Part shown: positions 18,088 to 46,610 of the stretch, piece by piece
Numbering within the stretch: position 1 is the stretch's first letter
Layout: every line of letters starts with the position of its first letter
From: Hanleya hanleyi
Taxonomy: Eukaryota; Mollusca; Polyplacophora; Lepidopleurida; Hanleyidae
NCBI GenBank assembly: GCA_036873755.1
Contig: JAVTVY010016129.1
Coordinates: 1-64,000, forward strand
Direction of reading: 5' to 3'
Length of the DNA: 64,000 nt
Program-made: the position numbers and the translations under genes
Notes under the pieces: generated by a model
Databases searched by the model: none
Told to the model about the DNA's origin: nothing
Seen by the model: only the letters and a program-made list of their open reading frames with translations

Positions 18088-18099
18088 GATGATGGGGAT

Positions 18100-18154: not shown

Positions 18155-18163
18155 GATAAAAAG
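18155..18163 (+). promoter_or_regulatory. TATA-like GATAAAAAG upstream of the small virion gene
   Basis: GATAAAAAG starts 41 bp before ATG 18196, the same spacing as the clearer TATA boxes in this element. The match to TATA is imperfect, so confidence is modest. Confidence 0.35.
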
Positions 18164-18195
18164 AGCAGGGTTGTGAGTTCTAGCATTAGTTGTAC

Positions 18196-18539
18196 ATGAT
18201 GTCTGCGCGAGTACGGAAGCACGCTCCGACGCTCCGTGTATTGAAGACGGCCCACCCGAGTTGGTCCGAACCATTGTACGCGGTGCGGACCCTGGCCGTG
18301 TACGCTGTCTGTGTGAGATCGGGTGCAACCTGTTAAAAGGCAACGTTCCACTGACTCCGGCTCAGAAGACCAAGTTGACCAAGCATAAGACAGGTCTCCG
18401 AACCCTAGTCCAGAAGTGAGTCTCTCAAACACAAAAGAAAAAGGTGTTACAGAAAGGCGGCTTTCTCGGGGCCATCTTAGCACCGTTGGCCGCTTCCGTG
18501 TTGGGTCCAGTATTGGGTGGACTCTTCGGGCGAAAATGA
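18196..18539 (+). pseudogene. Small conserved Polinton virion protein (GGFLG motif), disrupted
   Basis: The N-terminal part (KHAPTLRVLKTAHP) is in one frame from ATG 18196. The rest is in another frame from about 18246: an RCLCEIGCNLLKGNVPLTP block, a basic stretch, then an in-frame TGA at 18417, then LQKGGFLGAILAPLAASVLG and a stop at 18537-18539. The order (cysteine-containing helix, LKGN-PL, basic linker, GGFLGA-type hydrophobic C-terminus) matches a small protein commonly found beside Polinton ATPases and resembling adenovirus minor virion proteins. The shift lies in the CCCACCC run at 18251-18257. The stop overlaps the ATG of the next gene as ATGA. A membrane-active or capsid-cement role is plausible but unproven. 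Confidence 0.6.
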
Positions 18540-19368: not shown

Positions 19369-19370
19369 AA
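19363..19370 (+). promoter_or_regulatory. TATA-like TATTAAAA overlapping a stop codon
   Basis: TATTAAAA contains the TAA stop (19366-19368) of the preceding gene and lies 39 bp before ATG 19402 of the penton-like gene. It is the third stop-in-TATA junction in the element. Confidence 0.45.
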
Positions 19371-19401
19371 CCAACAGCAGCAGCAGGACAGCTCAGTCGC
19401 C

Positions 19402-20190: not shown

Positions 20191-20594
20191 TGAAGGTCCC
20201 TTACGAGTGCGATGCACGCAGCTATATGGACTATTATGCCCAACAGGCCGGGGGTGGCCTTCCCGTCTTTAGTGGTGCACGCATGCAACCAGGACATGGG
20301 CTGGGGAACATACTCGGGAGCATCGTCAAAACGTTCCTGCCCTTGGTGACCCGTGGGGTGAAAGCAATCGGCAAACAAGCGGTACGCAGTGGACTGCAAG
20401 TGGCCGGTGATGTCTTGGGGGGTACGGCACCCAACGAAGCCTTGAAACGGCGGGCCAAAGAAGCGGGAGGCGTCTTGGTGGCCAAAGCACAACGCACCGT
20501 AGGGAATAAAAGACCTGCACCACCGAGGCCCCGCGCCAGTCGACGACCGACCCAGCGACGACGCACATCGAAGACCCAGGATATCTTTTCTTAA
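20190..20594 (+). CDS. Core-like basic virion protein
   Basis: A 134-residue protein with three parts. The N-terminus ends in a glycine-rich block (QQAGGGLPVFSGARMQPGHG). A central amphipathic helical region follows (LGNILGSIVKTFLPLVTRGV, then GKQAVRSGLQVAGDVLGG). The C-terminus is very basic (RPRASRRPTQRRRTSK) and ends QDIFS. The layout matches small DNA-binding or pVI/pX-like proteins of Polintons and adenovirus-type viruses, found directly upstream of the major capsid gene. It starts on the last base of the penton-like stop and ends two bases before the capsid ATG. Likely roles are DNA condensation or capsid-DNA bridging, by inference. Confidence 0.7.
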   Translation: MKVPYECDARSYMDYYAQQAGGGLPVFSGARMQPGHGLGNILGSIVKTFLPLVTRGVKAIGKQAVRSGLQVAGDVLGGTAPNEALKRRAKEAGGVLVAKAQRTVGNKRPAPPRPRASRRPTQRRRTSKTQDIFS

Positions 20595-20596
20595 AC

Positions 20597-22375: not shown

Positions 22376-22490
22376 GTTCTTTCAATGTACAAGCCCCCAT
22401 GTTCTGGGCTTAAGTTTACAAGCCCCTGTTCTGGGCTTCAGTTCTTTCAATGTACAAGCCCCCTGTTCTGGGCTTCGGTTGTCACGTGGT
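22340..22490 (+). repeat. Tandem copies of the protease gene 3' end with hairpins
   Basis: The last codons and stop (TTTCAACGTACAAGCCCC to GGCTTAAG) are repeated about three more times in the 3' flank: TTTCAATGTACAAGCCCCC followed by GTTCTGGGCTT. Each copy forms a short hairpin, AAGCCC pairing with GGGCTT. The first hairpin includes the stop codon region. A 3'-UTR role is possible. Confidence 0.7.
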
Positions 22491-22522
22491 TGTTCTCACG
22501 TTGTTGTTGTTAGTTATTGTTG

Positions 22523-22528
22523 AATAAA
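22523..22528 (+). terminator. Poly(A) signal of the capsid transcript
   Basis: AATAAA about 150 bp after the protease stop, following a TTG-rich run, and followed by an A9 tract at about 22549. It is the last such signal before the right TIR. Confidence 0.6.
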
Positions 22529-23149
22529 AAACAAAATGAGGTCTCACAAAAAAAAAACCCTGTCTTGTGTGTTTTCTATATGAGCATAATGCATGAAACT
22601 GGCTTTGAACACCGTATTAGCCAATCAGTGGCCTAAAATGGAGCCAAAGGTAACCCATCCATGTCCAGAAAACATTACCCGGGTGTACAAGAGCCCGGAT
22701 GTAGGCGCGGGCGTAGGCCAAAGCATCCTAGTTCCCGGATGTAGGCGCAGACGTGAGCGAAATTCTAGTACCCGTCCATTGGCTCATTTTCTCGACCGCT
22801 GATTGGTGCAAATGGAACTGCCCATCCTTCCCACGTTCATTTACAATCCCCTTTTTGGGTTCAAGCTCTGTATATCGATGCCGCAACATTGTTGCCGAAC
22901 CTTGCCGAAAGGGAGACCTTTGACCTTTTGACCTGGATGTGACCTTTGACCTTTTGACCCGACGTTCATCCGCGCACTTCCGGTGATGCCGCGCACTTCC
23001 GGATAACCCGCGCGCGCGCTGCGGTCGGGGCGGGCCGGCCCGGGCCGGGAAAAATCCCACAGACAGGTCAGTACATACATTCCTATCATGTTCCCAGGTC
23101 ACACCCCATTCACACAGACCGGAAGTGACGTCATACCCCTAATTTTACA

Positions 23150-24215
23150 TGCACCCATCCATGACTGGATGCCCCTTCACGAATGCTTCACTTTGATACC
23201 TCACTCGACTCCATCGGACTATTAGTGGCTCACCTAGAACGCAAAAACGTCTATTTCCACACCCGTTTCCCACAATTCCCTGTCTGCGCATGCGCAGAAT
23301 GTGGACAACGGCCGAGACACTACTCCAGGCGGTTGCTCCCTCACATATGCTTCACATGGATACCTCACTCGACTTCATCGGCTCATTAGTGGCTCGCCTA
23401 GGCCCCAGAACGTCTATTTCCATACACTTTCTCTACTGCGCATGCACAGAATGACGTCAGTTCCACGTCACACCCAGCCCGTTGGATACTCCCTCACGTA
23501 TGTTTTACATTGATACCTCACTCGATCCAATTGGCCCAATAGTGGCCCACCTAAACCCCAACACGTCTATTTCTATACTACGGCCAGACTGCGCATGCGC
23601 AGACTATTGACAACGAACGACACACTAGCCCAGGCGGATGCTTCCTCACGACAGCTTCCAAATAAGACCTCATACGACACCATAGGATCATTAGGCACTC
23701 ACCTAAACCCTAAAACGTCTATTTGCACACCCTTTTCCCAGAATTCCCTGTCTGCGCATGCGCAGAATGTTGACAACGGCCGAGACACTAGTCCAATCGG
23801 ATGCCCCCTCACATATGCTTCACATTGATACCTCACTCAACTCCATCGGCTCATTAGTGGCTCACCTAGATCCCAAAACGTCTATTTTCATACCCTTTGT
23901 CTATTGCGCATGCGCAGAATGACGATATTCCGACCCCACATCCATCCAGTGGGATGCCCCGTCACACAGGCTTCACATTGATGCCTCACTCGACCCCATC
24001 GGTCCATTAGTGGCCCACCTAGGCCCCAAAACGGCTATTTCCATACCCTTTGTTTACCGCGCATGCGCAGAATGACGATATTTCAACCCCACACCCAGCC
24101 CGTCGGATGCGCCTTCACGAATGCTTCACATTGATACCTCATACGACTCCATCGACCCACTAGTGGCCCACCTAGACCCCAAAACGTCTATTTCCATACA
24201 CTTTGTCTATAGATT
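23150..24215 (-). repeat. About 150-bp units with the NRF1-like palindrome, right TIR
   Basis: Roughly seven units of the same repeat as at 13045-13500. TGCGCATGCGCA occurs at 23285, 23590, 23753 and 23905, with close variants at about 23438 (GCGCATGCACAG) and 24058 (CGCGCATGCGCA). The array is about 600 bp longer than its left-arm partner. Confidence 0.8.
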
Positions 24216-24289
24216 TAATATGCATTCCTAGTACCCGTCCTCTGCATGGCAGAACTGTACAACCCAGAACAAGTATGGACATGCCTTGA

Positions 24290-24530
24290 TCTCGGGGAGC
24301 CAGGTGTTCGGCACATGAGCTCACTCACGCAGACGCCAGACCAGGTGTTCACGGTCGCCGCAACATTGTAGCGAACGTGCAACAATGTTGCAATTCGGGG
24401 AGCCAGGTGTTCGGCACGTGAACTCACTCACGCAGACACATATGCACCAGACCAGGTGTTCACGATGCCGCAACATTGTAGCGAACGTGCAACAATGTTG
24501 CAATTCGGGGAGCCAGGTGTTCGGCACGTG
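24290..24530 (-). repeat. About 100-bp direct repeats in the right TIR
   Basis: Mirror of the 12735-13000 array. CCAGGTGTTC(G/A)(G/C)-type blocks alternate with GCAACAATGTTGCAATTCGG. No gene is present. Confidence 0.75.
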
Positions 24531-24936
24531 ACAACCCCCAGCCCAAGCAGACGTCAGCGAAATTCTGGCGGGGAAACCCCCAGAGACAGGTCAGTACATG
24601 TCCTATCATGTTCAAAAATGACCATCCCCATACCCATACAGGCCTGTATATTGTATAATACAGACCCCTATTGTAGGGGTAATCGAAAAGACACGGACCT
24701 GACCGAAAAGACACGGAGGTACCCATCGGACAGCACCGATAAGACACGAAGGTGAACGGCATTGTGGAAAAACTCCACAGACAGGTCAGTACATATCCTA
24801 TCATGTTCACAGGTCACGCCCCATTCACCCAGACCGGAAGTGACGTCATACCTGCAAGAGCGCCCCCTGGCGGAAGAAAGGAACCAAGAGTTACCTCCCT
24901 GGAAAACCTGGCTTTAAATCCGTTATATATACTACT

Positions 24937-27417: not shown

Positions 27418-27423
27418 CATGCC
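27418..27423. other. Target-site duplication CATGCC, left
   Basis: Abuts AGTAGTAGGGA at 27424 and is repeated exactly at 40473-40478. It is the 6-bp duplication of the second Polinton-type element. Confidence 0.9.
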
Positions 27424-27590
27424 AGTAGTAGGGAAAGGCTATTTAAACTCAGGTTTTCCAGGGAGGTAACTCTTGGTTCCTTTTTTCCGCCAGGGGGCGC
27501 CACCAGCTCAAGAGACCAAAAACTACCTCCAACACACAAGAGTTCCAATCTAGGGGGAGGTAACTCCAAGTCACTATAGTTCCGGCAAAG
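27424..27590. repeat. Left TIR of element 2
   Basis: Reverse complement of 40306-40472. Identity stops near CTATAGTTCCGGCAAAGG. Beyond it, the segment CCGGAAAGATCTCCACGATG...GCTGCTTG (27655-27715) recurs at 34085-34145. Confidence 0.9.
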
Positions 27591-27975
27591 GCAACAGTAC
27601 TGGCCAGCCTACATTCACGAGCAGGCACGTTCACCAGCAGGACCGTATTCACCAGCAGGGCCGGAAAGATCTCCACGATGTATGGACGATAACTCTGCTC
27701 AGCTGCTTGCGGCAGTATTAAGCAACAATGCATACTACTAGAATGTTCTTCGTCACAAAAGTAACCATAAAGAGTAAAAGTAAATATTTTTTCCGCCAGA
27801 TGTTTTTCTCTGGTGTAAAAAGATGTCCAGCCACCCTGAAATTACAGCTCTGTCGTCAGTCAGTTTCATTCGTAGCGCCGACAGTGCTTGTTTTTTATTT
27901 TTCTTGTTACCATTTGTCCTTTGGTGTTGAATATTTCGCCTGCTGCTGCTGGTCTTATTCTGGGGATCAATTAAT

Positions 27976-27999
27976 GAGGAGGGGGGGGGGGGGGGGGGG
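27976..27999. repeat. G homopolymer run
   Basis: About 20 consecutive G residues after GAGGA. A site where assembly length is likely unreliable. Confidence 0.8.
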
Positions 28000-28324
28000 T
28001 TGGCCTGGGTTATTAGCATAAATTTACTGGGAATGTTTAGGCCTATATTAGTTGTCCTTATATGGGAGAGCGTTGGGGGAGGGGACTGGGGGGGTATATA
28101 TATTTCTTTTCTTTTAGCATTCCGCAAATATATGAATTATGACCTCAATTATATGTGTTGTAATGTAAGGTGTTAGCTATTACATCTGTTGTTTATACAT
28201 AATTATTGCCATCCTAACATCCAGGCTACGTGGGCATTGTAAGGGCAGTATTGTAAAATCGTAGCCAGAACAACGAATGCCCAGTGGTTTTTTCCAGGGC
28301 TTGAACGGAAAAAAAGATTAAAAA

Positions 28325-28455
28325 AAAATCAAATTCCAGGACATTTTCAGTCTGCGGTTTTGTAGGTCCAATAAAGGAATTTCTGGTGTTTAAACAGCAT
28401 CGCCCGTCAGTTTAAGTAGGTTATACATCAGAGTGAATAAGCATATTATGAGATG
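28325..28455. repeat. Internal inverted repeat, left arm
   Basis: About 125 bp (CAGGACATTTTCAGTCTGCG to GCATATT) matched in reverse complement at 32388-32515. It encloses the foldback block and marks an older nested unit of about 4.2 kb inside element 2. Confidence 0.8.
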
Positions 28456-28488
28456 GAAGTTATATAGGGGAGAGCTATCCTTATTATA

Positions 28489-30505
28489 ACCATATATATT
28501 TTTCACTTGAGTATAAATAAAATGTATATGAAGGTCATTCAAAATGGTTATTAATCCACGAAAAAAAAGGTTGAATAGCGCGATCAGAATAGCACGATCA
28601 GGGACCTTTCTCTATCATTTCAATATACCTTCAAGGTAAACATTCACGAGGTGGACCCATCCCCTATCCCCTTAATATAAGATGAACATTCACCCCTATC
28701 CCCTCAATATACCTGCAAGGTGAACATTCACCAGGAAGACCCATCCCCTATGTCTTGAATATATCTATAGGATGAACATTCACCAGGAGGACCGTTATCC
28801 ATCACCTCGACTTACCTATAAGATGAACATTCACCAGGAGGACCGTTATCCATCACCTCAACTTACCTATAAGATGAACATTCACCAGGGGGGCCGTAAA
28901 GAGGAACATTCACCAGGAGGACCGTTATCTATCACCTCAGAATACCTATAAGATGAACATTCACCAGGGGGACCGTAAAGGTGAACATTCACCAGGGGGA
29001 CCGTTATCTATCACCTCAAAATACCTATAAGATGAACATTCACCAGGGGGACCGTAAAGGTGAACATTCATCAGGGGGACCGTTATCTATCGTCTCCATA
29101 TGCCTATAACGTGAACATTCACCAGGAGGACCGTTATCTATCACCTCAGTATATCTAAGAACGGTCCTCTTCGTGAATGTTCACGTTATAGGCATATCGT
29201 AGTTATAGAGAATGGTCCCCCTGGCGAATGCTCACTTCACAGGTATCTTGAGGTAATAGCTGAGAACAGGTATATCGAAGTGATAGGAACGGTCCTCCTG
29301 GTGAATGTTCACTTTATATGTTTATTGAAGTAATAGTGAACGGTCCCCCTGGTGAATGCTCATGCCTTTTTGGTATATTGAAGTGGTAGCGAACGGTCCC
29401 CCTGGTGAATGCTCATGCCTTATAGGTATACTGAAGTGGTAGCGAAAGGTCCTCCTTGTGAAAGTTCGCCTTATATGCACAATGAAGATAAAACCACACT
29501 CCTGGTGAATGTTCACTTTATATGTTTACTGAAGTAACAGTGAACGGTCCTCCTGTTCAATGTTCACATTATAGGTATATTGAAGTTAAAAGAGAACGGT
29601 CCTCCTGTTGAATGTTCACATTATAGGTATATTGACGTGATAGAGAATGGTCCCACTGGTGAATGTTCACTTTATAGGTATGTTGAGGTAATAGAGAACA
29701 GGTATATCGAAGTGAAAAGGAAGGGTTCTCCAGGTGAATATATATGTTTATTGAAGTAATAGTGAACGGTCCTCCTGTTGAATGTTCACCCCTGGGGAAT
29801 GTTATCAGTATGGTATATCGAAGTGATAGAGAACGGCCTCCTTCGTGAATGTTCACGTTAAAGGTATATCGAAGTAACGGAGAATGGTCCCCCTGGTGAA
29901 TGTTCAATGTATAGGTATCATGAGGTAATAAAGAACACGTATATCGAAGTGATATGACCGGTCCTCCTGGTGAATGTTCAATTTATAGGTATCTTGAGGT
30001 AATACAGAACAGGTCTGTCGAAGTGATATGACCGGTCCTCCTGGTGATTGTTCACTTTATATGATTAATTAAGTAATAGTGAACGGTCCTTCTGGTGAAT
30101 GTTCACTTTATATGATTATTGAAGTAATAGTGAACGGTCCTCCTGGTGAATGTTCACCTTATAGGTAAATTCAGGTGATGGATAACTGTCCGCCTGGTGA
30201 ATGTTCATCTTATAGGTATATTAAAGACATAGAGGATGGGTCTTTTGGTTGAATGTTCACCTTACAGGTATATTGAGGGGATAGGGGATGGGTCCCCTGG
30301 TGAATGTTTATCTTATATTGAGGGGATAGTGGATCCGCGTCCCCCTCGTGAATGTTTACAATTGAATTGTATATTGAAATGATAGAGAAAGGTCCCTGAT
30401 CGCGCTATTCTGATCGCGCTATTCAACCTTTTTTTCGTGGATTAATAACCATTTTGAATGACCTTCATATACATTTTATTTATACTTAAGTGAAAAATAT
30501 ATATA
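28489..30505. repeat. 2-kb foldback with opposed GGTGAATGTTCACC arrays
   Basis: The outer arms of about 130 bp are near-perfect inverted copies (ATATTTTTCACTTGAGTATA at the left, its complement at the right, and AATAGCGCGATCAGAATAGC). Between them about 30 units of 50-60 bp each carry a dyad GGTGAACATTCACC next to GGAGGACCGTTATC. Units point rightward before about 29155 and leftward after it, so the whole block can fold on itself. Noncoding. Confidence 0.85.
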
Positions 30506-32387
30506 CAGTATGGGTAGGATAATAATTTTTTTTCTTCAAATATATGACCGATAACAATGTCATATAATGTAGGAGGGTTTTTTTCATGTGATGAAACTTT
30601 ATTCACATATGTCGCATGCATCAAAATTTCAGATAAATTCAATTTGCATTCCAGTTCGTTGAAACATACGATAGGATTGAACTTCAGGAATCTCTTTTCA
30701 AAAATAGAAAAAGGATTGCGTATTTCAAAGGCTATGGGTACTGCAAAGTACTCGTACAATTCATTATTAAATGTCGGGTATGTTGTCAAAAAGCACACAG
30801 TTATATTAAACGACGATTGAAAAGTATATTTTGCAGTCAGTTTGTATTATAAAGTAAACGGAGTACGAGGAAAAGTATATATTATATCTAGTTCGAAATT
30901 TGGAAAAGGGTGTGAAACAGTTGTATGTACATTTTGTGCATATCTGTTACACAATGAATATACCCAGATTGCTCTTTAACGATAGTAGAACTGGCAAATG
31001 GCAAATATTTCCCCTACCCCTTGAGCTAGGAACTGAAACTTATCACACTATATACCCTTGGGTCAAGCTCTATCAGATATGTCAAAATATCCAAGATGGC
31101 CGATGTGATGACGTCACAGTGACGTCATTTTCAAAAAAGACATTTTTTGGTCGATTTTTCGGTCACATTTTTCGATTTATTTTATCTTTGCCATTTCTCG
31201 GCAAACGCTGCAAGATAAATTAGTAAGTAATAGTCTGATGTGAAATAAAATAGTTTTTGCCCACTTTTCCTCACAGAAAAGCAGAAATTTTGAACAAAAA
31301 TGACGAAAACATCACCTTCCTGTTACACCTCACACGGTCGCCATTTTGAATTTACCCATGATCCTCTGCTCGGAGGATCATGCAAATATAATCAAAATGA
31401 CCCCAATATGGTATGCTACAAAGTCATGGAATGTCAGCTCTCAAGTATTTGGCGTTACGGAAATAGGACAGAAAGTTTGGTAGGGGACTACATTGCCCCC
31501 CCCCCCCCACACCAACCAGCCTATACTCAACCATTTTTTTTTCCAATCCTCAATTTCGACTATTCTTATTATAACCATAATCTTACGACCAAGGGATATT
31601 ATTTAGCCTGTCATGCTTTGAAAAAATGTTGTTACTGATTTTTTAGAAATGTTCAAATATATCGAATTTAAAAAATAATGTCGGATGAAACTACACACGT
31701 TCAAGTCCGGCTGTTTTGGTGCTATTACTGTGCAATCAACATCTGAATCGCAATTTTCAAAACACGTCGTGAACATTGTCAATTCGCAGCATCTTACTTG
31801 TAACAAAACTTTGGACCAGAATTTTTTTTTTTCTCTCAAAATATCCAGGTAGATAGAAAGTTATTTCTCATTAAACTAGATATGAAATATGGTAAGATAT
31901 GATATGATCAATAAATTATTTGCAGAACTGGATAGCTGTAAACTATTTCAAACATGTGATTATGAAAGCCTTTGTGAACATCATTTAAGATTAGTTTTTG
32001 TCAAAATTGAAATTTGACAGAAATGTTTTCAACTGAATCTATAGCTCAACAATCTGAATAACACATGTATAATTTCAGAATATTTGTTTATTTCAAGACA
32101 TTTTTTACGTTAGAGAAACAATATGTTCCCGCTCCAGTCTCCCAAGTTTCTGTACGTTTCCCATTGAATGCTGATGACCAATGCAGACTTTTCTTCTTAT
32201 TTAAATAATTAATGGGTATTTATATTTTAAATTATGCTCAATTTTCCTAAATATAGCAAACTTTATGGTTAGAGTTGGGCTACTGTTGTCTGTACGATAT
32301 GGTCTACAAGATTAGCTTCCATCATTTGTGAAGTTATTTTCATCATTTGTGAGGTTATTTTTTAGTCTAAAATCAGTTATTTGTACC
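30506..32387. other. No gene seen
   Basis: AT-rich DNA with a C run at about 31498-31509 and no ORF with recognisable domains. It is the loop between the foldback and the right internal arm. Confidence 0.5.
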
Positions 32388-32515
32388 ATCCGATAATATG
32401 CTTAATCACTCTCATGTATAACCCACTTAAACTGACGGGCGATGCTGTTAAAACATCAGAAATTCCTTTACTGGACCTACCAAACCGCAGACTGAAAATG
32501 TCCTGGGATTTGGAT
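32388..32515. repeat. Internal inverted repeat, right arm
   Basis: Reverse complement of 28325-28455. Followed by AGCAGCTGGTCCATACTTCATG (32536), which recurs as a diverged direct repeat at 34136. Confidence 0.8.
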
Positions 32516-32624
32516 TAATACTGCCACAACTTGCACAAGCAGCTGGTCCATACTTCATGTAAGTAAGCACGAGAGAGATATCCTCTCCTTATTGGCGTTT
32601 ACGCCAATGGCATTCAACTTAAAT

Positions 32625-32655
32625 AGGGTGGGTGGGTGGGTGGGTGGTGGTGGTT
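32625..32655 (+). repeat. (GGGT)n tract
   Basis: GGGTGGGTGGGTGGGTGGGT followed by GGTGG repeats. It has enough G triplets to form a four-stranded structure. Confidence 0.75.
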
Positions 32656-32689
32656 GGAGCCGTGATACATGGATATTGAAACAGGAGTA

Positions 32690-33130
32690 TTTATGTGACC
32701 GGTAGAATGAAGCGACAGAATGGCCCTATGCTGTCTTTTTGGGGGAGACGGCAGAATGGCAGAATGAAAATCGTGGCCGTGTAGGCCTTCTCTTTTATTT
32801 TGGCGACGGCACTATGGCACAATGAAGCTCTCTCAATTTATCAAGTATTTACAAATAGGACTATTACTGTGGCCGGCAGAATGAAGCGGCAGAATGACCG
32901 TATTCTCCCTTATTTGGGGAGACGGCAGAATGGCACAATGAAAATTATGGCCTTGTACTTGTTTTTTTTTTATCACGACAGAATGTCTCAATTAAACTTT
33001 CTCAACTGATCAACTATTTCATTACATTCTTTTTTTTATCACGGCAGAATGCCCCAATTCAACTTTTCCAACTATTTAAAATATAAAAACTAGAAGAATT
33101 TCTCTTCTTTCTTTTTTTGGTGCACGGCAC
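32690..33130 (+). repeat. GGCAGAATG/GGCACAATG block, first part
   Basis: Paired short motifs, for example GGCAGAATGAAGCGGCAGAA and GACGGCAGAATGGCACAATG, spaced by variable AT-rich sequence. The same motif pair dominates 34200-36080. Confidence 0.75.
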
Positions 33131-33159
33131 AATGTCACTTTCCTCATTTTCTTGAAGTT

Positions 33160-33590
33160 GAGTTTCAAAGCACTGTTAGGAAGGAATATATCTGAAGTGC
33201 AGTGTCAAAGCGGTGTTAGGGAAAAATGTACGTGGAGTCGAATGTCAAAGCGGTGTTAGGGAGGAATGTACGTGAAGTCGAGTGTGGAAGCGGAGTTAGG
33301 GAGAAATGTACATGAAGTCGACTGTCAAAGCGTTGTTAGGGAGGAATGTACGTGAAGTCGAGTGTCAAAGCGGTGTTAGGGAGGAATGTATGTAAAGTGG
33401 AGTGTCAAAGCGGTGTTAGGGAGGAATGTATGTGAAGTCGAGTGTCAAAGCGGTGTTAGGGTGGAATGTATGTGAAGTCGACTGTCAAAGCGGTGTTAGG
33501 GAGGAATGTAAGTGAAGTTGATTGTCAAAGTGGTGTTCGGGAGGAATGTATGTGAAGTCCAGCGTCAAAGCGGGATTAGGACTTAGGGTT
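33160..33590 (+). repeat. 40-bp tandem repeat
   Basis: About ten units of GGAATGTA(C/T)GTGAAGTCG, AGTGTCAAAG and CGGTGTTAGGGA, with a 40-bp period visible from the exact recurrence of AGTGTCAAAG at 33361 and 33401. Noncoding. Confidence 0.9.
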
Positions 33591-34194
33591 AGGTATGCTT
33601 CATAACTATCAGGTTCAGGGTCATTTCAGCTATAGAAGTCTGATAATTTCTCCACCAAAGCGTAACTGGGGTAATGTCGAAGCTGGGTGTTCAGCATGAG
33701 TGTGCGTGAAGTTGCTCCATTACCATCCCTGCCACCAATAGCGGAAGTTGACCTTTACTACGTTGCTATGACGTAAAGGGGAAACCAACCAACGCACGGT
33801 TCAGTTTGAATCCGGCCGAACAACTCCTTTTGTGTTGCACATGAGCGAACTACTTTTCATATGCTCTGTCCAGATAAACAGGGAAAATTATCTCCAGATA
33901 ATTCTTTTTAACGCTAGGCCAACAGAGGTATCATGCAGACTTGAAAAGTAATCGAAATGTTCGGTAAACATCTATTTTACTATATATGATGTCACTTCCG
34001 GCGATGTGCGCGAAGGCCCCGAATCCGGTCCCAAAATCTGACTGGTGGCTGGGGTGTTATTAGACCCCCAGCGAGGTGGTTGCAGCAGGGCTGGAAACAT
34101 CTCCACGATGTAGGCCTATGGACGATAACTCTGCCCAGCTGCTTGGTGGATACTTCATGTAAGAAAGCACGAGAGAGAATGGTATGAAGGGGTA

Positions 34195-36135
34195 CATGTA
34201 ACCCTAATCCTGCAACGTCAGAATGAACACCGTCAGAATGAAGATTGTCTTTTCTTCAAACTGACGCTTACACCGTCACAATGAAACACAATCAATTTTT
34301 CTCTGTACGACAGAATGCAGCGTCACAATGGAAAATGAAAGACTTTCTCTCTGCCAGAATGGTAGGAAGGGGTATATGTAACCCTAATCCTGCAACGTCA
34401 CAATGAACACCGTCAGAATGAATATTGTCTTTCTTCAAACTGACGCCTTGTAACGTCACAATGAAACGCGTCAGAATGAACATGTCTTTCTTCAGAGCAT
34501 CACTTTGCAACGTCACAATCAAAGTCAATCCTGCTTACCAGCATCACAATATAACACAATCACTTTTTCCCTCTACGGCAGAATGGAACGGCACAATGGA
34601 AAACGAAAGACTCTCTCTCTTTCTGCCCGGGCACTTTGAACTGGCAGAATGGAAGGAAGGGTTGAGCCTAACCCTGTAACGTCACAATGAAGTCCGTCAG
34701 AATGAAGATGTCTTTCTTGAGAGCGACACTTTGCAACGTCACAATCAAAGCCAATCCTGCTTTCTAATTGGAGTTATACAAGGTACCTGTTTTGTCGGTG
34801 CGGCAGAATGGAACGACACAATGAAAAATTTAGGACCATATTTTTTCGAACCGACGCTGCAACGTCACAATGAAACACAGTCACTTTACCTCTTTACGGC
34901 AGAATGCAGCGGCACAATGGAAGATCAGATAATTTTCTTCTGCCGACACTTTGAACCGGCAGAATGGAAGGAAGGGTGAGCCTACATGTAACCCTGTAAC
35001 GTCACAATGAAGTGCGTCAGAATGAACATGTCTTTCTTCAGAGCGTCACTTTGCAACGTCACAATCAAAGTCAATCCTGCTTAGCAGGATCACAATATAA
35101 CACAATCACTTGTTCCCTCTACGGCAGAATGGAACGACACAATGGAAAATGGAAGACTTTCTTTCTGCCGGCACTTTGAAGCGACAGAATGGAAGGAAAT
35201 AAAGTGTGTAATTGATCATCAGAAACATTACTTTTTCTCGGTACGGCAGAATGGCACGTCACAATGAAAAATTTAAGACCATCTTTTTTCGAACTGACGC
35301 TGCGGCGTCACAATTAAACACAGTCACTTTAGTTCTTTACGGCAGAATGCAGCGGCACAATGGAAAATCAGAGACTTTTCTTCTGCCGGCACTTTGAACC
35401 GGCAGAATGGAAGGAACGGGTGAGCCTAACCCTGTAACGTCACAATGAAGTGTGTCAGAATGAAGATGTCTTTCTTGAGAGCGTCACTTTGCAACGTCAC
35501 AATCAAAGCCAATCCTGCTTTCTAATTAGAGATAGTTGCTAAATCATTAGCTATTACGCTATACAAGGTACCTGTTTTGTCGGTACGGCAGAATGGAACG
35601 ACACAATGAAAAATTTAAAACCATATTTTTTCGAACTGACGCTGCAACGTCACAATGAAACACAGTCACTTTACCTCTTTACGGCAGAATGCAGCGGCAC
35701 AATGGAAAATCAGAGAATTTTCTTCTGCCGAAACTTTGAACCGGCAGAATGGAAGGAAGGGTGAGCCTAACCCTGTAACGTCACAATGAAGTGCATCAGA
35801 ATGAACATGTCTTTCTTCAGAGCGTCACTTTGCAACGTCACAATCAAAGTCAATCCTGCTTAGCAGCAACACAATATAACAATCACTTCTTCCCTCTACG
35901 GCAGAATGCAACGGCACAATGGAAAATGAAAGACTTTCTTTCTGCCGGCACTTTGAAGCGACAGAATGGAAGAAAGGGTTGAGCCTAGCCCTGTAACGCC
36001 ACAATAAAGTCCGTCAGAATGAAGATGTCTTTCTTGAGAGCGTCACTTTGCAACATCACAATCAAAGCCAATCCTGCTTTCTAATTAGAGTTAGTTGCTA
36101 AATAATTAGCTATTACGCTATACAAGGTACCTGTT
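34195..36135 (+). repeat. Higher-order array of CACAATG/CAGAATG pairs
   Basis: Dozens of copies of (G/C)TCACAATGAA and (G/C)TCAGAATGAA, or GGCAGAATGGAA and GGCACAATGGAA, alternate in pairs. Larger units repeat: one starting CGTCACAATGAAGTCCGTCA (34680, 35436, 35994) and one with AACATGTCTTTCTTCAGAGC (34475, 35024, 35803). The motif N(C)A(C/G)AATG is kept while the spacers vary. No function is known to me. Confidence 0.85.
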
Positions 36136-36390
36136 TAGAAAGTTAGCGTTGACACATATTTGTTTCAAATGAAGCTTTCTCCACATTGTTACAGTGCAGA
36201 CCTTGCATTTTCAAAATCAGACCACGCTGATTGACAGGCCTGTTTACAGGTGATCACAGGGCTGATTTATTCTTAATTGGGCTAATTTCAATATAAAAGA
36301 TTATCCACAGTAAGCCTTTACCAGGCTGATGAATAGGCCCTGTGCCAAGTACTGACCGGGCCTATCACGGGGCCTCGCCTGATCAGAATA

Positions 36391-36468
36391 GGTCTTTGGA
36401 TTATGGACGCGGATATTCTCTAATGGACGACGGCTGGATTATGAATGACGGACTAGACGCTTGTAATC
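36391..36468. repeat. 78-bp segment also found at 36609 and at the window start
   Basis: GGTCTTTGGATTATGGACGC through GGACTAGACGCTTGTAAT. A second copy is at 36609-36686. The last 56 bp match positions 4-59. The two copies bracket 140 bp that begins with element 1 TIR-type sequence. Confidence 0.75.
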
Positions 36469-36560
36469 AAAGTGAAGCATTCGTGAAGGGGCATCCAGTC
36501 ATGGGTGGGTGCATGTAAAATTACGATTTTTTCCCGAAATTATAAAAAGCGGAATACGGA
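36469..36560. repeat. Element 1 TIR-derived segment, left partner
   Basis: CAAAGTGAAGCATTCGTGAA and GGGGCATCCAGTCATGG match 13450-13490 in the element 1 TIR. The reverse complement lies at 40085-40180 in this element, so the inner 3.7 kb is bounded by inverted copies of a Polinton TIR piece. Confidence 0.75.
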
Positions 36561-36686
36561 CTTGTCATTTTGAATTTGGTGCTAATACTGTTATATGGAA
36601 AATGGGATAGGTCTTTGGATTATGGACGCGGATATTCTCTAATGGACGACGGCTGGATTATGAATGACGGACTAGACGCTTGTAAT

Positions 36687-37400
36687 TTACCCCTAAAATA
36701 GGGGAAAACACCTATCAACCCTAGCCAAAAGGGCTAATATCGATCTCCGGGCTTATTGGGACCTGCCTATCAAGTCAATGGGGTGGGTGCATGTAAAATT
36801 AGGATTTTTTCCCGAAAATATAAAAAGCGGAACGCGGACTTTACCCCTAAAATAGGGGAAAACACTTATCAACCCTAGCCAAAAGGGCTAATATCGGTCC
36901 CCGGGCTTATCGGGACCTGCCTATCAAGTCAATGGGGTGGGTGCATGTAAAATTAGGATTTCCCCCCGAAAATATAAAAAGCGGAACACGGACTGTAATT
37001 TACCCCTAAAATAGGGGAAAACCCCTATCAACCCTAGCCAAAAGGGCTAATATCGGTCCCCGGGCTTATCGGAGCCTGCCTATCAAGTCAATGGGGTGGG
37101 TACATGTAAAATTAGGATTTTTCCCCGAAAATATAAAAAGCGGAACACGGACTTCACCCCTAAAATAGGGGAAAACTCCTATCAACTCTAGCCAAAAGGG
37201 CTAATATCGGTCCCCGGGCTTATCGGGGCCTGCCTATCAAGTCAATGGGGTGGGTGCATGTAAAATTAGGATTTTTTTCCGAAAATATAAAAAGCGGAAC
37301 ACGGACTTTACCCCTAAAATAGGGGGCAACCCCTATCACCTCTAGCCAAAAAGGCTAATATCGGTCCCCGGGCTTATCGGGGCCTGCCTATCCAGTCAAT
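36687..37400 (+). repeat. 157-bp tandem array, five units
   Basis: Units start TTACCCCTAAAATAGGGGAA at 36687, 36842, 37000, 37155 and 37310. Each contains three short dyads: CCCCTAAAATAGGGG, AGCCAAAAGGGCT and CCCCGGGCTTATCGGGG. The inverted partner array is at 39530-40085. Confidence 0.9.
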
Positions 37401-37449
37401 CGGGTGTTTTCACAGAAAATAAAAAATAAATGAATAGGCGTACACCCAA

Positions 37450-37683
37450 ATGCGCCCCCGCATTAGAAAAACAGCCATGGCGATCTATGAACAGTATACC
37501 TTACTACCGCTTGAAATGAAAGGCGACCCCACGCACAGGTCCATCATGAAGACCAAGCGTCACTTGGAAGAGGCTATGGGACTACCACCCACCGAGGCCC
37601 TGGAAAATGCGATCAGAATGCGCAAACAACTGTTTCAGGACATGCTGCCCGAAGAATATCCAGGCCTGTCCGACGACGCTTAG
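37450..37683 (+). CDS. 77-residue protein, the only ORF supported in element 2
   Basis: A short frame from ATG 37450 (MRPRIRKTAMAIYEQYTLLP at the start) to TAG at 37683. It is basic at the N-terminus, helical in the middle (EALENAIRMRKQLFQ) and acidic at the end (EEYPGLSDDA). Composition and balanced codon use look more like protein than the surrounding repeats, and it lies 138 bp upstream of the same type of stem-loop that follows the ATPase in element 1. I recognise no family. It has no counterpart among the element 1 genes. Confidence 0.5.
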   Translation: MRPRIRKTAMAIYEQYTLLPLEMKGDPTHRSIMKTKRHLEEAMGLPPTEALENAIRMRKQLFQDMLPEEYPGLSDDA

Positions 37684-37820
37684 GTCACACCGAGCAAAGA
37701 TGGAACTTTCTGAAATGGCGACAGACAAGAGCAGCCGAAAATACATCTAACGGACAAGAAGGAATATAACAGCGCCAAATGGCGGCCTCTGATTGGACAA
37801 GAGTTTTCTTGAGTTGTAAA

Positions 37821-37853
37821 CATACCCAACGCGGCTCCCCCAGCGTGGGTATG
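37821..37853 (+). promoter_or_regulatory. 3' stem-loop with conserved GGCTCCCCCA loop, element 2
   Basis: CATACCC (37821-37827) pairs with GGGTATG (37847-37853) and ACGC with GCGT, with one bulged A, closing the loop GGCTCCCCCA (37833-37842). The loop is identical to that at 18062-18071, while the stems differ but still pair. TTGGGGAAAATAAA follows at 37863. Confidence 0.7.
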
Positions 37854-37956
37854 ATGTAACATTGGGGAAAATAAACTATATGAAAAAAAACTTCTTCTTG
37901 TTGTTGTTCTCTCATGCGTCATCCTTGTTGTTGTTGTTCTCTCTCCGGTCTATATC

Positions 37957-38007
37957 ATGGCGTCAAGGCGTTATGTTAGAGCGTTAAGGCGTAACTACGA
38001 GCGTTGA
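37957..38007 (+). other. Possible 5' stub of a small basic gene
   Basis: MASRRYVRALRRNYER then a stop. It follows the stem-loop, an AATAAA and TATATC, the same order as in element 1, where a small basic-N-terminal protein starts 110 bp after the stem-loop. It may be the remnant of that gene. Too short to be sure. Confidence 0.25.
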
Positions 38008-38109
38008 CGGGCGTCACTGCATTTCGAAGAATTAGTGACAATTCTATGGAATATCTAGAAAATCAGAACTTCTGAGCTATTTCACCAGGGCTTTGAAGCG
38101 TTAAGCTTG

Positions 38110-38710
38110 GCGTTGGCGGGCGTTGCTACAAGATGACACCTCACACGACGCATTCGGACCAAGGATGGTCCCTCTCTACCCCAAATACCTTCCTTCACTG
38201 CCCCAAAATGTCCACTTTCGCTACTACTCGTACTGATGACGTCACAGGTGACGTGGACAGCCCTCAAATCGGGGTCTACACCCCGAGAGCTACAAAAGGA
38301 CACCCTGCACGACGCATTCGGACCAAGGATGGTCCATCTCGACACCAAAAACCTTCGTGCACTACCCCAAAATGGCCACTTTACTTACTACAACCAACTG
38401 CGCATGCACAGATTGACGCGACTTGCACTTAAAAACACGTCAATCTGACTCTACCCACACAAGCTTCACTTTGACACCTTCCACGACCCATTCGGACCCA
38501 TAGCGGTCCATCTCTACCCCAAACACACACCCACATACCCCCAAAATGCCTGCTTTCTATACTACGGCCAGACTGCGCATGCGCAGAATATTGAAAACGG
38601 ACGAACCATTAGTCCAGTCGGATGCTCCTCCACGACAGCTTCAAAGCAAGACCTCATATGACACCATAGGATCATTAGGGGCTCACCTAGACCCCAAAAC
38701 GTTCACCCAG
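38110..38710 (-). repeat. Degenerate copy of the element 1 right TIR array
   Basis: Blocks CGGCCAGACTGCGCATGCGC, GACACCATAGGATCATTAG and CCTAGACCCCAAAACGT match 23580-23720 in order and orientation. One perfect TGCGCATGCGCA is at 38574-38585. This ties element 2 to the element 1 lineage beyond the termini. Confidence 0.8.
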
Positions 38711-38774
38711 TACGGGCCTATACCCCCCTTGCCAGTATGGGCCTACCCCTATATGGGCCTACCCAGGCCCCGGT

Positions 38775-39450
38775 GAACTTTTTCCAAAAATTTCATCGTT
38801 TCGCTTCGAAACCCTTCCCATCGTGTTCTAAATGACGAGACGTGAAAAACAAGACCAAACAACCCATATCACAATGAACGTCTGTGAATTTCCCAGGTTG
38901 AACCTATACTCCCATATAGCCAGTATGGGACTATATGGGCTGTATGAACTTTTCAAAAATTTCACCGTTGCGCTCCGAGACCCTTCCTATCGTGTTCTAA
39001 ATGACGAGACGTGAAAAACAAATCCAAGCAACCCATATCACAATGAACGTGTGTGAATTTCCCAGGTTGGACCTATACCCCCCATGGCCAGCCTATGGGC
39101 CTATATACAGACCTCGGTGACTTTCCCAAAAATTTCACCGATTCGCTCCGGGACCCCTCCCATTGTATTTTTCTCGGCGAGACGAGAAAAACGAGACCCC
39201 ACAACCCATAGTAACACCCACAAAAAAAATTGACCACCCCTCCCCCCATATAGCCAGTATGAGCTTATATACAGACCTCGGTGACTTTTCCCAAAAATTT
39301 CACCGCTTCGCTCTGGGACCCCTCCCATTGTGTTTTTCTCCGCGAGACGAGAAAAACGAGACCCCACAACCCATAGTAACACCCACAAATTTTGTTGACC
39401 ACCCCTCCCCCCATATAGCCAGTATGGAGCTATACCCATACAGGCATTTC
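38775..39450 (+). repeat. 168-bp tandem repeat, four units
   Basis: Units recur at 38777, 38945, 39117 and 39281 with TTTTC(C)CAAAAATTTCACCG, GACGAGA(C)GTGAAAAAC and CCCATATAGCCAGTATG. Noncoding. Confidence 0.85.
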
Positions 39451-39529
39451 CCCGTATATTGTATATTGTACGAGACCTTGTTCCGTTTTTTATTCATTTA
39501 TTTTTTATTTTCTGTGAAAGCACCTGATT

Positions 39530-40085
39530 GACTGGATAGGCAGGCCCCGATAAGCCCGGGGACCGATATTAGCCCTTTTGGCTAGAGGTGATAGGGGTTT
39601 TCCCCTATTTTAGGGGTAAAGTCCGTGTTCCGCTTTTTATATTTTCGAAAAAAAATCCTAATTTTACATGCACCCACCCCATTGACTTGATAGGCAGGCC
39701 CCGATAAGCCCGGGACCGATATTAGCCCTTTTGGCTAGAGTTGATAGGAGTTTTCCCCTATTTTAGGGGTAAAGTCCGTGTTCCGCTTTTTATATTTTCG
39801 GGGGGAAATCCTAATTTTACATGCACCCACCCCATTGACTTGATAGACAGGTCCCGATAAGCCCGGGGACCGATATTAGCCCTTTTGGCTAGGGTTGATA
39901 GGTGTTTTCCCCTATTTTAGGGGTAAAGTCCGTGTTCCGCTTTTTATATTTTCGGAAAAATGCTAATTTTACATGCACCCACCCCATTGACTTGATAGGC
40001 AGGTCCCAATAAGCCCGGGGACCGATATTAGCCCTTTTGGCTAGGGTTGATAGGTGTTTTCCCTATTTTAGGGTAAAGTCCGTGT
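39530..40085 (-). repeat. 157-bp tandem array, inverted partner, four units
   Basis: Reverse complement of the 36687-37400 array (TTCCCCTATTTTAGGGGTAA recurs). The opposed arrays flank the 77-codon ORF, stem-loop and TIR-like array. Confidence 0.9.
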
Positions 40086-40180
40086 TCCGCTTTTTATAGT
40101 TTCGGGAAAAAATCGTAATTTTACATGCACCCACCCATGACTGGATGCCCCTTCACGAATGCTTCACTTTGATACCTCAC
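40085..40180. repeat. Element 1 TIR-derived segment, right partner
   Basis: CCATGACTGGATGCCCCTTC, then ACGAATGCTTCACTTTGATA; the inverted partner of 36469-36560 and a match to 23160-23200. Confidence 0.75.
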
Positions 40181-40305
40181 TCGACCCAATCGGGCCATGC
40201 AGCTTATTTGAAGTCTGAGGACTACTTTTTCTCCGCGGAAGCTTTTTCCCGCGACCGCATCACCGCCAGACCGCATCACCGCAGAAGAATACATACCCAG
40301 GGGCC

Positions 40306-40472
40306 CTTTGCCGGAACTATAGTGACCCGGAGTTACCTCCCCCTAGATTGGAACTCTTGTGTGTTGGAGGTAGTTTTTGGTCTCTTGAGCTGGTGGCGCC
40401 CCCTGGCGGAAAAAAGGAACCAAGAGTTGCCTCCCTGGAAAACCTGAGTTTAAATAGCCTGTCCCTACTACT
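40306..40472. repeat. Right TIR of element 2
   Basis: Reverse complement of 27424-27590, ending CCCTACTACT, followed by CATGCC (40473-40478). Confidence 0.9.
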
Positions 40473-40478
40473 CATGCC
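40473..40478. other. Target-site duplication CATGCC, right
   Basis: Exact match to 27418-27423. Confidence 0.9.
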
Positions 40479-42250: not shown

Positions 42251-42264
42251 CTGACCTACTGACC

Positions 42265-42490
42265 TAGCGTTGGACCCACCGGTTCTCGTCAGATCACCGA
42301 AGTTAAGCAAAGTTAAGCTCGGTCAATACTTGGATGGGTGACCGGGTGCTGTACTAACTGGGCTGATCGGTGTCCAGGGAAATAGGAACTGTGAGCACTC
42401 TCGTGTTCTGGCACATGTAGGCACCGTCGTGATATGACTGGAACAAGGTTGAAAACGACGTTAAACCCTACTACTCACTCCTTTGGAACA
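42265..42490 (+). mobile_element. Intact 5S-rRNA-derived SINE
   Basis: The head CCGGTTCTCGTCAGATCACC, GAAGTTAAGC and CTTGGATGGGTGACCGGGTG is 5S rRNA-like with the internal promoter. A short duplication (AAGTTAAGCAAAGTTAAGC) is present. The body AGCACTCTCGTGTTCTGGCA and tail GTTGAAAACGACGTTAAACC match the split copy at 25758-26478. It is not a functional 5S gene, because the remaining 5S sequence is missing. Confidence 0.88.
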
Positions 42491-43400: not shown

Positions 43401-43479
43401 CGCAATTTCACTGCTAGAGAATCCAAAGACAGAAGGTCAGTGAAATCAGCACTGAAATCACGTAAAAATCCTCAAAGAG

Positions 43480-44429
43480 ATGGAAGAAAATGTTACTTAC
43501 GCCCATCCAAACTGGACTGTTCCTGCCTCAAATCAATCCCTGCCTTTGATCGAGAGCGACAGGAATGTTGTCGGGGCCATATTAACGCTCTGTCTAATCA
43601 TACAAGGTACTGTGGGAAGTTTACTTGTCGTCCAAGCTATTCTCAGTCGGCCCGAACTCAAACAAGAAAAGAATATGTTTGTAGCCTTCCTCACTATTCC
43701 CGATGTCCTTATGTTGAATGTTTTATATTCCGGTAACGTGTGCGCCTATTGGACCGGCAGATGGCAATGCGGGATCGTGGTGTGTTACCTTTGGCCCATA
43801 TTCGCCGCTCTATTCGTGGCAAGTTCCATGATATTACAGACAAGTATTGCCTTACAGAAATATGTCGTCTTCTACCATAAGAAGAAGGTATTCTATAGCA
43901 GAAGGTCTGTATGTTTGGCTGTGGTGGCGTCCTGGCTTATTCCCATACTTGCTTTCACGCCAGAAACTAAGACGGCCATTGAGCTTGCGCTTTCTAATGA
44001 TATCACTAGCGCCTTCACTGACGGCCGAATCATATCGTTTGAGTGTATTTACTATAACCTTATAAGCGACAATGTAAAGTGGATTGTAGCCATAGCTTTT
44101 GTGTTTGTACCTTGCTCTATCACGGTTTTCTGCTATGGCCGCATTGTTTGGAAGATCCGACATGTCCGAAATTCCAACCCAGGCGGACAACAAGAACTTC
44201 CAAGAAGTGAGTTCCTAAGAAGAGGTATGCAATCGGATTTCATGCTCGCCCGGATGCTTGCAACATCTTGGTTGGTTATGCTATTGGGGTACTGCCCTTT
44301 TACATTGCTACAAGTGTTCGACTCCGATAAGACAGCGCCTAGGATCTACTACACAATATTTGCAAGTCTCCACTGCTTCGCCACGGGAGCCAATGCTTGG
44401 GTGTACGGAATGATGCATAAAGATTTCAG
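43480..44429 (+). CDS. Rhodopsin-class GPCR, exon 1 (seven transmembrane segments)
   Basis: The exon encodes 316 full residues. Three N-glycosylation sequons (NVT 4, NWT 11, NQS 18) precede TM1 (about 32-55). TM2 has the conserved aspartate D75. C97 and C189 are placed for the usual extracellular disulfide. The DRY position reads QKY (126-128), TM6 has YCP instead of WxP (271-273), and TM7 has NAWVY for NPxxY (305-309). So it is a divergent class A receptor; the ligand is unknown. At 44430 the donor CAG/GTAGGT follows KDF. Reading through would give an immediate stop, whereas splicing to 63864 restores the helix-8 sequence in phase. Acts in the plasma membrane with G proteins, by family. Confidence 0.9.
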
Positions 44430-44589
44430 GTAGGTTTATTTATAGTCGTTGTCATTGTGGGGTATGTCAGTCAGAGAGGAACACTGTTGTCAGCGTCAAA
44501 TGAAGTATAACAGTTCGACACGTGCGGATGTCATTCTCCCATTGTAATAGTTTGTAACCTCTTATTGACGGTGTAACACCTGACAGTAG

Positions 44590-46610
44590 GAGGTATCTGA
44601 TGCCATGAGAATGGTGAATATAAGTCCTGCCGCAGTCTGCGATACTGATGCCATAAGAATGGCGGATGTAAGCCATGTCGCGGTCTGCAATGCTGATGCC
44701 AAAAGAATGGCGGATGTAAGCCATGTCGCGGTCTGCAATACTGATGCCATGAGAATGGCGGATGTAAGCCATACTGTGGTCTGCGATACTGATGCCATAC
44801 GAATGGCGGATGTGAGCCATGCCGCGGTCTGCAATACTGATGCCATGAGAATGGCGAATGTAAGCCATGCCGCAGTCTGCGATACTGATGCCAAAAGAAT
44901 GGCGGATGTAAGCCATGTCGCGGTCTGCAATGCTGATGCCATGAGAATGGCGGATGTAAGCCATACTGTGGTCTGCGATACTGATGCCATACGAATGGCG
45001 GATGTGAGCCATGCCGCGGTCTGCAATACTGATGCCATGAGAATGGCGAATGTAAGCCATGTCTCGGTCTGCAATAATTACATGACGGATGTAAGCCACG
45101 CCGCGGTCTGCAATACTGATACCACGAGAATGTCGGATGTAAGCCATACTGTGGTCTGCGGTACTGATGCCATAAGAATGGCGGATGTAAGCCATGCCGC
45201 GGTCTGCAATACTGATGCCATGAGAATGGCGAATGTAAGCCATGTCGCGGTCTGCAATGCTGATGCCATAAGAATGGCGGATGTAAGCCATACGGTCTGC
45301 AATAATTACATGACGGATGTAAGCCACGCGGCGGTCTGCAATACTGATGCCACGAGAATGGCGGATGTAAGCCATGTCGCGGTCTGCAATGCTGATGCCA
45401 TAAGAATGACGGATATAAGCCATACTGTGGTCTGTAATACTGATGCCATAAGAATGGCGGATGTAAGCCATGCCGCGGTCTGCAATACTGATACAATGAG
45501 AATGGCGAATGTAAGCCATGTCTAGGTCTGCAATAATTACATGACGGATGTAAGCCATGCTGTGGTCTGCAATACTGATACCACGAGAATGGCGGATGTA
45601 AGCCATGGCGCAGTCTGCAAAACTGATGCCACGAGAATGTCGGATGTAAGCCATGCTGTGGTCTGCAATACTGATGCCACGAGAATGTCGGATGTAAGCC
45701 ATGCGGCGGTCAGCAATATTGATGCCATGAGAATGCCGGATGTAAGCCATGTCGCGGTCTGCAATAATAATGCCATGAGAATATCGGATGTAAGCCATGT
45801 CGCGGCTTGCAATGCTGATGCCATGAGAATTGCGGATGTAAGACATATCGCGGTCTGCAACACTGATGCTATGAGAATTGCGAATGTAAGCCATGTCGCG
45901 GTCTCCAATACTGATGCCTTGAGAATAGAGGATGTAAGCCATGCCGCGGTCTCCAATACTGATGCCTTGAGAATCGAGGATGTAAGCCATGCCGCGGTCT
46001 CCAATACTGATGCCTTGAGAATAGAGGATGTAAGCGAAGCCGCGGTCTGCAACACTATGTCATGAGAATGGCGGATGTAAGCAAGGCGGCAGTCTGCAAT
46101 AATGATGCCATGAGAATAGCAGAAGTAAGCCATGCCGCGGTCTGCAATACTGATGCCATGATAATATCGGATGTAAGCCATGCCGCGGTCTGCAATACTG
46201 ATGCCATGAGAATAGCGGGTGTAAGACATATCGCGGTCTGCAATACTGATGCCATGAGAATGGCGGATGTAAGCCATGCCGCGGTCTGCAAAACTGATGC
46301 CATGAGAATATCGGATGTAAGCCGTGCCGCGGTCTGCAATACTGATGCCATGAGAATAGCGGATGTAAGACATATTGCGGTTTGCAATACTGATGCCACG
46401 AGAATGGCGGATGTAAGCCATGTCGCGGTCTGCAATGCTTATGCCATGAGAATTGCGGATGTGAGCCATGTCGCGGTCTGCAATGCTTATGCCATGAGAA
46501 TTGCGGATGTAAGACATATCGCGGTCTGCAACACTGATGCCACGAGAATTGCGAATGTAAGCCTTCAAAGCCTTCAAGGTCTTCAAAGGTAGATGTAAGC
46601 CATACATTCC
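44590..46610. repeat. 48-bp minisatellite, about 41 units, open in several frames
   Basis: Unit: GCGGTCTGCAATACTGATGC, then CATGAGAATGGCGGATGTAA, then GCCATGCC or a variant. Because 48 is a multiple of three, long frames arise on both strands: minus 44467-45990 (16-residue repeat MAYIRHSHGISIADRD) and plus 44605-45525 (MADVSHAAVCNTDAMR). The few length changes seen (9 bp near 45075 and 45305, 3 bp near 45290) keep the frame. It lies in the receptor intron. I treat it as a satellite, with coding not excluded. Confidence 0.75.

Follow-up and report, generated by a model that had tools for sequence, protein, structure and literature searches.

A stretch of 64,000 nucleotides from the genome of the mollusc Hanleya hanleyi (GenBank assembly GCA_036873755.1, contig JAVTVY010016129.1, positions 1 to 64,000; the window) contains two adjacent elements with the ends of Polintons. 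The element under study, E2, occupies positions 27424-40472 (13,049 bp) and carries AGTAGTA at its ends. Its terminal inverted repeats (TIRs), at 27424-27591 on the forward strand and 40305-40472 on the reverse strand, are 98% complementary to each other over 168 nt, and a 6-bp target-site duplication (TSD), CATGCC, flanks it at 27418-27423 and 40473-40478. Its neighbor, element 1 (E1), lies at 11900-24936 on the forward strand (13,037 bp), is flanked by a TSD of different sequence, CATATG, and has in common with E2 a 43-nt TIR core (27458-27500 in the left TIR of E2); 60 bp of the outer TIR match between the two at 92-95%. In its (AGT)2 terminal motif and in the 6-bp length of its TSD, E2 agrees with vertebrate Mavericks as described in PMC8097293, and these features mark it as Polinton-derived. 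Three inner segments are also common to the two elements: 36466-36523, 38463-38702 (forward strand; 70-84% to subterminal arrays of E1) and 40113-40198 (forward strand; 93-96%). The original prediction, made from the letters of the window alone, had already recognized the shared ends and the separate duplication and had read E2 as a non-autonomous, Polinton-type relative of E1; the ends, the TSD and the shared segments bear this out. It had also pictured E2 as a satellite that has no genes and consists of tandem repeats; here the evidence leads elsewhere, to a family of relatives that carry genes of their own.

The left flank of E2 lies in a dispersed host repeat: counting that of E2 itself, the 254-bp flank has at least 55 matches (best 40 of 221 candidates scored). 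Here and in the similarity searches below, the genome matches are the best-scoring candidates, and the counts are lower bounds. For an empty-site test, the flanks of E2 were joined and aligned to three host-repeat copies chosen from these matches. One of them (L055) aligns gap-free through the insertion point with a single target copy, CACGCC, and E2 is therefore one insertion that arrived as a single piece; the other two (L053 and L054) also align over the joined flanks, but with gaps at the insertion site. That two unrelated element ends were joined by the assembly, the caveat attached to the original prediction, is very improbable. The assembly consists of 52,793 contigs, repeats can break assemblies, and two family loci (on C4315 and C19979) do share a flank and 2 kb before diverging, but the near-identical TIRs of E2, the same six bases on both sides and the host-repeat copy that crosses the site all argue against such a junction here.

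Most of the length between these ends is not native to the element. A search with the E2 TIR reached 30 other contigs, 26 of which were compared with E2 in 250-bp bins. The left TIR is common to all 26 of these sibling loci and parts of 36.4-40.5 kb are shared by up to 25, while 27.6-36.4 kb (about 8.8 kb) shares nearly nothing with them except short pieces in C4315 and C23138. Within this region, 28330-32512 (no strand assigned) has 127-nt inverted ends, from which its outer borders are deduced, and its inner part at 30440-32320 has at least 75 other matches on 37 contigs, none of them a contig with an E2 TIR (best 40 of 9121 candidates scored). A second stretch, 34145-36386 (likewise unstranded), has at least 140 matches in the genome (best 40 of 2787 candidates scored), including full-length ones at 94-96% with identical sharp borders. 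Both 28330-32512 and 34145-36386 are nested repeats unrelated to the family. The genome-wide searches of the interior covered 30440-32320 and 34145-36386, so that coverage of 27.6-28.3 and 32.5-34.1 kb is incomplete.

The native part of E2 comprises the left TIR and 36.4-40.5 kb. The latter holds the stub of an inverted arm and a right arm that consists of the TIR, a 153-bp array, the 165-170-bp arrays, a spacer and the end of a gene. In the right arm, the 153-bp array lies at 39491-40146 and the 165-170-bp subterminal arrays of the family at 38774-39431, both on the forward strand; the stub of the inverted left arm is a 153-bp array at 36681-37436 on the reverse strand. The arrays noted in the original prediction are thus present as subterminal arrays of the family, but they are not copies of the TIR itself, from which they had been supposed to derive; for the stem-loop that it had also assigned to the E1 lineage, only the surrounding sequence was compared, by alignment without folding. 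Between the stub and the right-arm arrays, a 77-codon ATG frame at 37450-37683 on the forward strand is a relic of the C-terminal end of a family protein, ZB, and matches residues 133-213 of the ZB copy at locus L015 with 95% identity. The claim that E2 holds no recognizable viral gene is thus not borne out. That E2 is a large, gene-free satellite of tandem repeats, packaged as such, is an idea that its ends, its TSD and a length close to that of E1 (13,049 vs 13,037 bp) favor, but the evidence contradicts it: E2 holds the relic, 27.6-36.4 kb is almost entirely missing from the 26 siblings and the two stretches searched there are dispersed repeats, so that we give it hardly any weight.

Other coding signals in E2 are slight. 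Its longest open frame (137 codons) is no longer than the shuffle mean (139), and its 12 frames of at least 100 codons exceed both the mean (5.5) and the maximum (11) of 60 shuffles, an excess of a kind that repeats can produce. A Pfam scan of six E2 frames gave no match above cut-off, a protein-database search with the 77-aa frame found no relatives, and tblastn of the E1 proteins against E2 gave no integrase or capsid match. As judged from these searches, and with no PolB on the contigs listed, E2 falls outside the definition of an autonomous Polinton.

The relatives of E2 give its structure a context. The TIR search returned at least 41 matches on 31 contigs (best 40 of 2017 candidates scored), from which eleven two-ended elements were derived, E2 among them, with lengths between 427 and 16,606 bp: ten TIR pairs and C26237, whose second end was found separately. 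Two loci were not counted: C19979, which has one end of E2 type and another of E1 type and lacks a matching TSD, and C36126, in which several ends occur. The TSD is a perfect 6 bp in nine of the eleven and agrees at 5 of 6 bases in C7128 and C32279, and the left and right TIRs are 92.9-98.2% identical. The architecture is mostly one of inverted arms, running from the TIR through 153-bp and 170-bp arrays, ZB and a second gene, ZATP, and back again, with inverted repeats making up 0.57-1.00 of the length in nine measured elements (at least 0.89 in six) and 0.25 in E2; C13276, which was read as three pieces, has no computed fraction. At least a trace of ZATP, ZB or both is present in ten of the eleven elements, and E1 frames compared with all eleven by tblastn gave only ATPase matches, with no integrase or capsid homolog. 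The smallest member (L011, C7128:45163-45589) is a 427-bp copy of nearly nothing but two TIRs, flanked by CGTGCC and CATGCC; because even this copy has a TSD (5 of 6), the TIR alone seems, from its sequence, to suffice for movement. The largest, C13276 (16.6 kb), was considered as a full helper with the E2 TIR and rejected: each arm carries ZATP and ZB, and the remaining E1 proteins do not match it.

Two pairs of loci complicate the census. C4315 places E1-type genes beside an E2-type TIR: a flank, TIR and 2 kb are common at 98% to L027 (C4315:16000-24100) and L028 (C19979:55200-63000), beyond which one enters E1-type capsid genes and the other a satellite. The divergence possibly reflects recombinant alleles or an assembly switch, which leaves C4315 ambiguous as an E1 element with E2 ends. 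Separately, L022 (C23138) and L009 (C28026) have a flank and one satellite end in common at 97%; the pair likely represents two haplotypes or an assembly duplication, and the family counts may include alleles.

The two proteins of the family share a plan. ZATP (409 aa) consists of a C2H2 finger (CX2C-X12-HX4H), to which the finger models of Pfam score under their cut-offs, an ATPase and a C-terminal helical domain, and ZB (213 aa) combines a C2H2 finger with a C-terminal domain related to that of ZATP. An AlphaFold2 model of ZATP built from 13 sequences (mean predicted local distance difference test, pLDDT, 73.8) was compared with the PDB, where the top eight matches are all the DNA-packaging ATPase B204 of Sulfolobus turreted icosahedral viruses, STIV and STIV2 (best E 4.9e-6); on this modeled fold ZATP is a packaging-type ATPase. 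Such an ATPase thus belongs to the family; E2 itself retains the ZB relic only. ZATP has 206 database relatives at E <= 0.01, and the C2H2 pattern occurs in 56 of 120 listed, ahead of the Walker motif in 55. Finger-ATPases therefore exist outside this genome too, and what is unusual is the company that this one keeps. A scan of IMG/VR with the ZATP alignment returned one distant ATPase only (L044). The ATPase frame of E1 (17365-18048, forward strand) was examined as a source of ZATP and rejected: identity is 43% over 156 aa, no finger is seen in the E1 frame, and the two stand apart in a tree in which both are on long branches and only their separateness was used. With its finger and C-terminal domain, ZATP is accordingly a packaging protein distinct from that of the candidate helper.

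Genome-wide, ZATP is abundant. At least 102 copies were found (best 102 of 40,754 candidates, a selection biased toward good copies), nearly all full length and at least 91% identical, of which 57 have no internal stop and 45 have stops. The original prediction had named, as fatal to it, that all copies be decayed remnants of a gene-bearing element; this describes E2 but not its family. Allowing up to three mismatches, the 43-nt TIR core occurs 309 + 321 = 630 times and the reversed pattern 0 + 0 times, which excludes chance, and the exact core is present in both E2-type and E1-type TIRs. E1-type capsid genes number at least 71, E1 included (best 71 of 40,847 scored), the others being 86-95% identical and most having one or more in-frame stops, and PolB (PF03175) is matched at least 164 times, often by frames that are 1,100-1,480 codons long. 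Among the matches listed, the 79 PolB contigs overlap neither the 92 ZATP contigs, nor the 71 capsid contigs, nor the 31 contigs with E2 TIRs; ZATP and capsid meet on a single contig (C34820), about 38 kb apart. This distribution points to ZATP, capsid and PolB residing on separate elements. On C15952, 2 kb separate an E1-type TIR from a copy of ZATP.

E1 is a candidate helper for such elements. On its forward strand it encodes an integrase (15862-16818; RVE, PF00665, E 6.8e-11), the packaging-type ATPase already mentioned and a 621-codon frame (20510-22375) for a putative major capsid protein, whose gene is 8.6 kb from the TIR core. Among the relatives of this last frame are a Littorina protein without a name and F54H12.2-like proteins of Pecten, Lytechinus and Apostichopus; we take F54H12.2 to be the Maverick capsid protein. 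The best matches of its predicted model, in which mean pLDDT is only 61.9, are the capsid proteins of Sputnik, Paramecium bursaria chlorella virus 1 (PBCV-1) and mavirus (best E 3.6e-15), which identifies it, at the level of a model, as a double-jelly-roll capsid protein. PolB was not found by Pfam in the eleven E1 frames scanned; because of this, and because none of the 71 capsid-match contigs is among the listed PolB contigs, the E1 lineage may itself depend on a polymerase supplied in trans. PHROGs gave only two matches to nine E1 frames, both with E above 0.02 and of unknown function. Residues 487-621, at the end of the capsid frame, extend past the capsid part conserved in relatives; frames close to two PolB loci resemble them at 42-44%, and a weak match is to the protease S273R (E 0.63).

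Elsewhere in the window, outside E2, a 5S rRNA at 42257-42373 is the sole Rfam match (42 bits against a cut-off of 38). At 44597-46563, next to a rhodopsin-type G protein-coupled receptor frame (43456-44433), a 48-bp unit is repeated in tandem about 42 times, and this array has long open frames on both strands.

We estimate at roughly 55% the probability that E2 belongs, as a decayed copy enlarged by other repeats, to a family of capsid-less Polinton satellites that is mobilized in trans and perhaps packaged with its own ATPase. At the least E2 works like a non-autonomous, Polinton-class transposon, and plausibly like a satellite. The satellite relation of the original prediction is thus well motivated for the family, but E2 itself is not a large gene-free satellite: it is a decayed copy swollen by repeats, and its relatives carry genes. 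Among the findings behind the reading is the spread of elements that have no integrase or capsid homologs, yet keep an ATPase and a finger protein between common ends and 6-bp duplications; all eleven two-ended elements lack those homologs, and a candidate helper with shared ends adjoins E2. In the mechanism that we envisage, integration, DNA synthesis and capsids would be supplied by Polintons of the same nucleus, where integrase and capsid would probably come from the E1 lineage, which shares the TIR core, and the polymerase from Polintons that bear PolB. In the least certain step, the fingers of ZATP and ZB would recognize the subterminal arrays and drive satellite DNA into helper capsids, so that the family might perhaps be packaged. 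The inverted arms may have arisen via duplication of one end, and in E2 most of the left arm and the intact form of either gene are gone, while at least two unrelated repeats have entered it.

The chief competitor, to which we give a considerable chance, though clearly below even odds, is that these are plain non-autonomous derivatives, formed by deletion and inverted duplication of a full Polinton with ZATP and ZB and amplified in trans by integrase and PolB, their genes hitch-hiking without packaging. The TIR-only copy with its TSD, the wide occurrence of finger-ATPases, the stops in 45 of the 102 listed ZATP copies and the faintness of selection all count in its favor; it sits less easily with more than 100 near-full-length ZATP copies at 91% or more in a genome whose eleven two-ended elements have no capsid or integrase homologs, and with shared variants that lean silent. 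Variants present in two or more elements are more silent than private ones, with amino-acid-changing to silent ratios of 5:6 against 122:46 for ZATP and 11:9 against 113:53 for ZB (combined Fisher p 0.04).

Several observations count against the satellite interpretation itself. Taken singly, the same comparisons reach only p 0.08 (ZATP) and 0.31 (ZB), and pooled dN/dS (nonsynonymous to synonymous substitution rates) between loci is 0.71 for ZATP, from 89 pairs among 14 copies, and 0.62 for ZB, from 247 pairs among 23 copies, with copies covering less than half of the gene and pairs with fewer than 100 codons left out. In a neutral simulation, 33% of copies remain free of stops when divergence is 2.25%, and 60% do so when it is 1%; the 57 stop-free ZATP copies are therefore no proof of selection by themselves, the more so as the 102 are the best-scoring of 40,754 candidates; the evidence for selection on ZATP and ZB is weak. 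Among the matches listed, an E1-type capsid and the exact TIR core are joined only in E1 and in C12210, where they are 9.2 kb apart, and a full Polinton with a more distant ZATP may exist beyond the best-scoring matches. ZATP does not derive from the ATPase of E1, and nothing observed here points to particles or to movement at the present day.

Non-autonomous DNA transposons such as miniature inverted-repeat transposable elements move in trans by their ends, and the 427-bp copy resembles them, but most two-ended copies of this family retain at least parts of two genes, one of them a packaging-type ATPase. Virophages follow a satellite logic around double-jelly-roll capsids and encode their own capsid, which the satellite family does not. 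With Polintons and Mavericks the family shares the (AGT)2 end motif, TIRs, a 6-bp TSD and a packaging-type ATPase, a core gene according to PMC4028283 and PMC8097293, and differs in being made of short, two-gene elements rich in inverted repeats with no polymerase, integrase or capsid homolog recognized. According to PMC8097293, Polinton particles have not been observed, and whether such elements form them in animals is still a matter of argument from genes alone. The nearest satellite logic is that of Staphylococcus aureus pathogenicity islands (SaPIs) with their own TerS, which, according to PMC6893505, combine a packaging-specificity protein of their own with the capsid of a helper; the proposed likeness extends to phage-inducible chromosomal islands (PICIs), and here the host is eukaryotic, the protein is a motor-type ATPase rather than TerS, and packaging is only proposed. 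For the proposed action of ZATP at the subterminal arrays, the nearest model by analogy would be adenovirus IVa2, described in PMC5033970 as a packaging ATPase whose binding sites are repeats close to the left end of the genome; ZATP differs in its C2H2 finger, and its array binding is only proposed. In the open-licence literature, including the accessible portions of PMC4028283, PMC6431247, PMC2871265, PMC5753468 and PMC8097293, no description was found of Polinton satellites or of non-autonomous Polintons with a packaging ATPase.

A wider picture, tentative and as a whole rather doubtful, is that of a multipartite Polinton system in an animal genome, composed of E1-type elements supplying capsid and integrase (the window copy shows no PolB), Polintons with PolB and more than 100 satellites, rich in inverted repeats and without a capsid gene, that would direct their own packaging by ZATP and ZB, in a piracy like that of SaPIs and PICIs. 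A family without capsid, integrase or polymerase homologs but with a finger-bearing, packaging-type motor is hard to explain unless packaging pays. If true, packaging-type satellites would extend from phages to the virus-like elements of animals.

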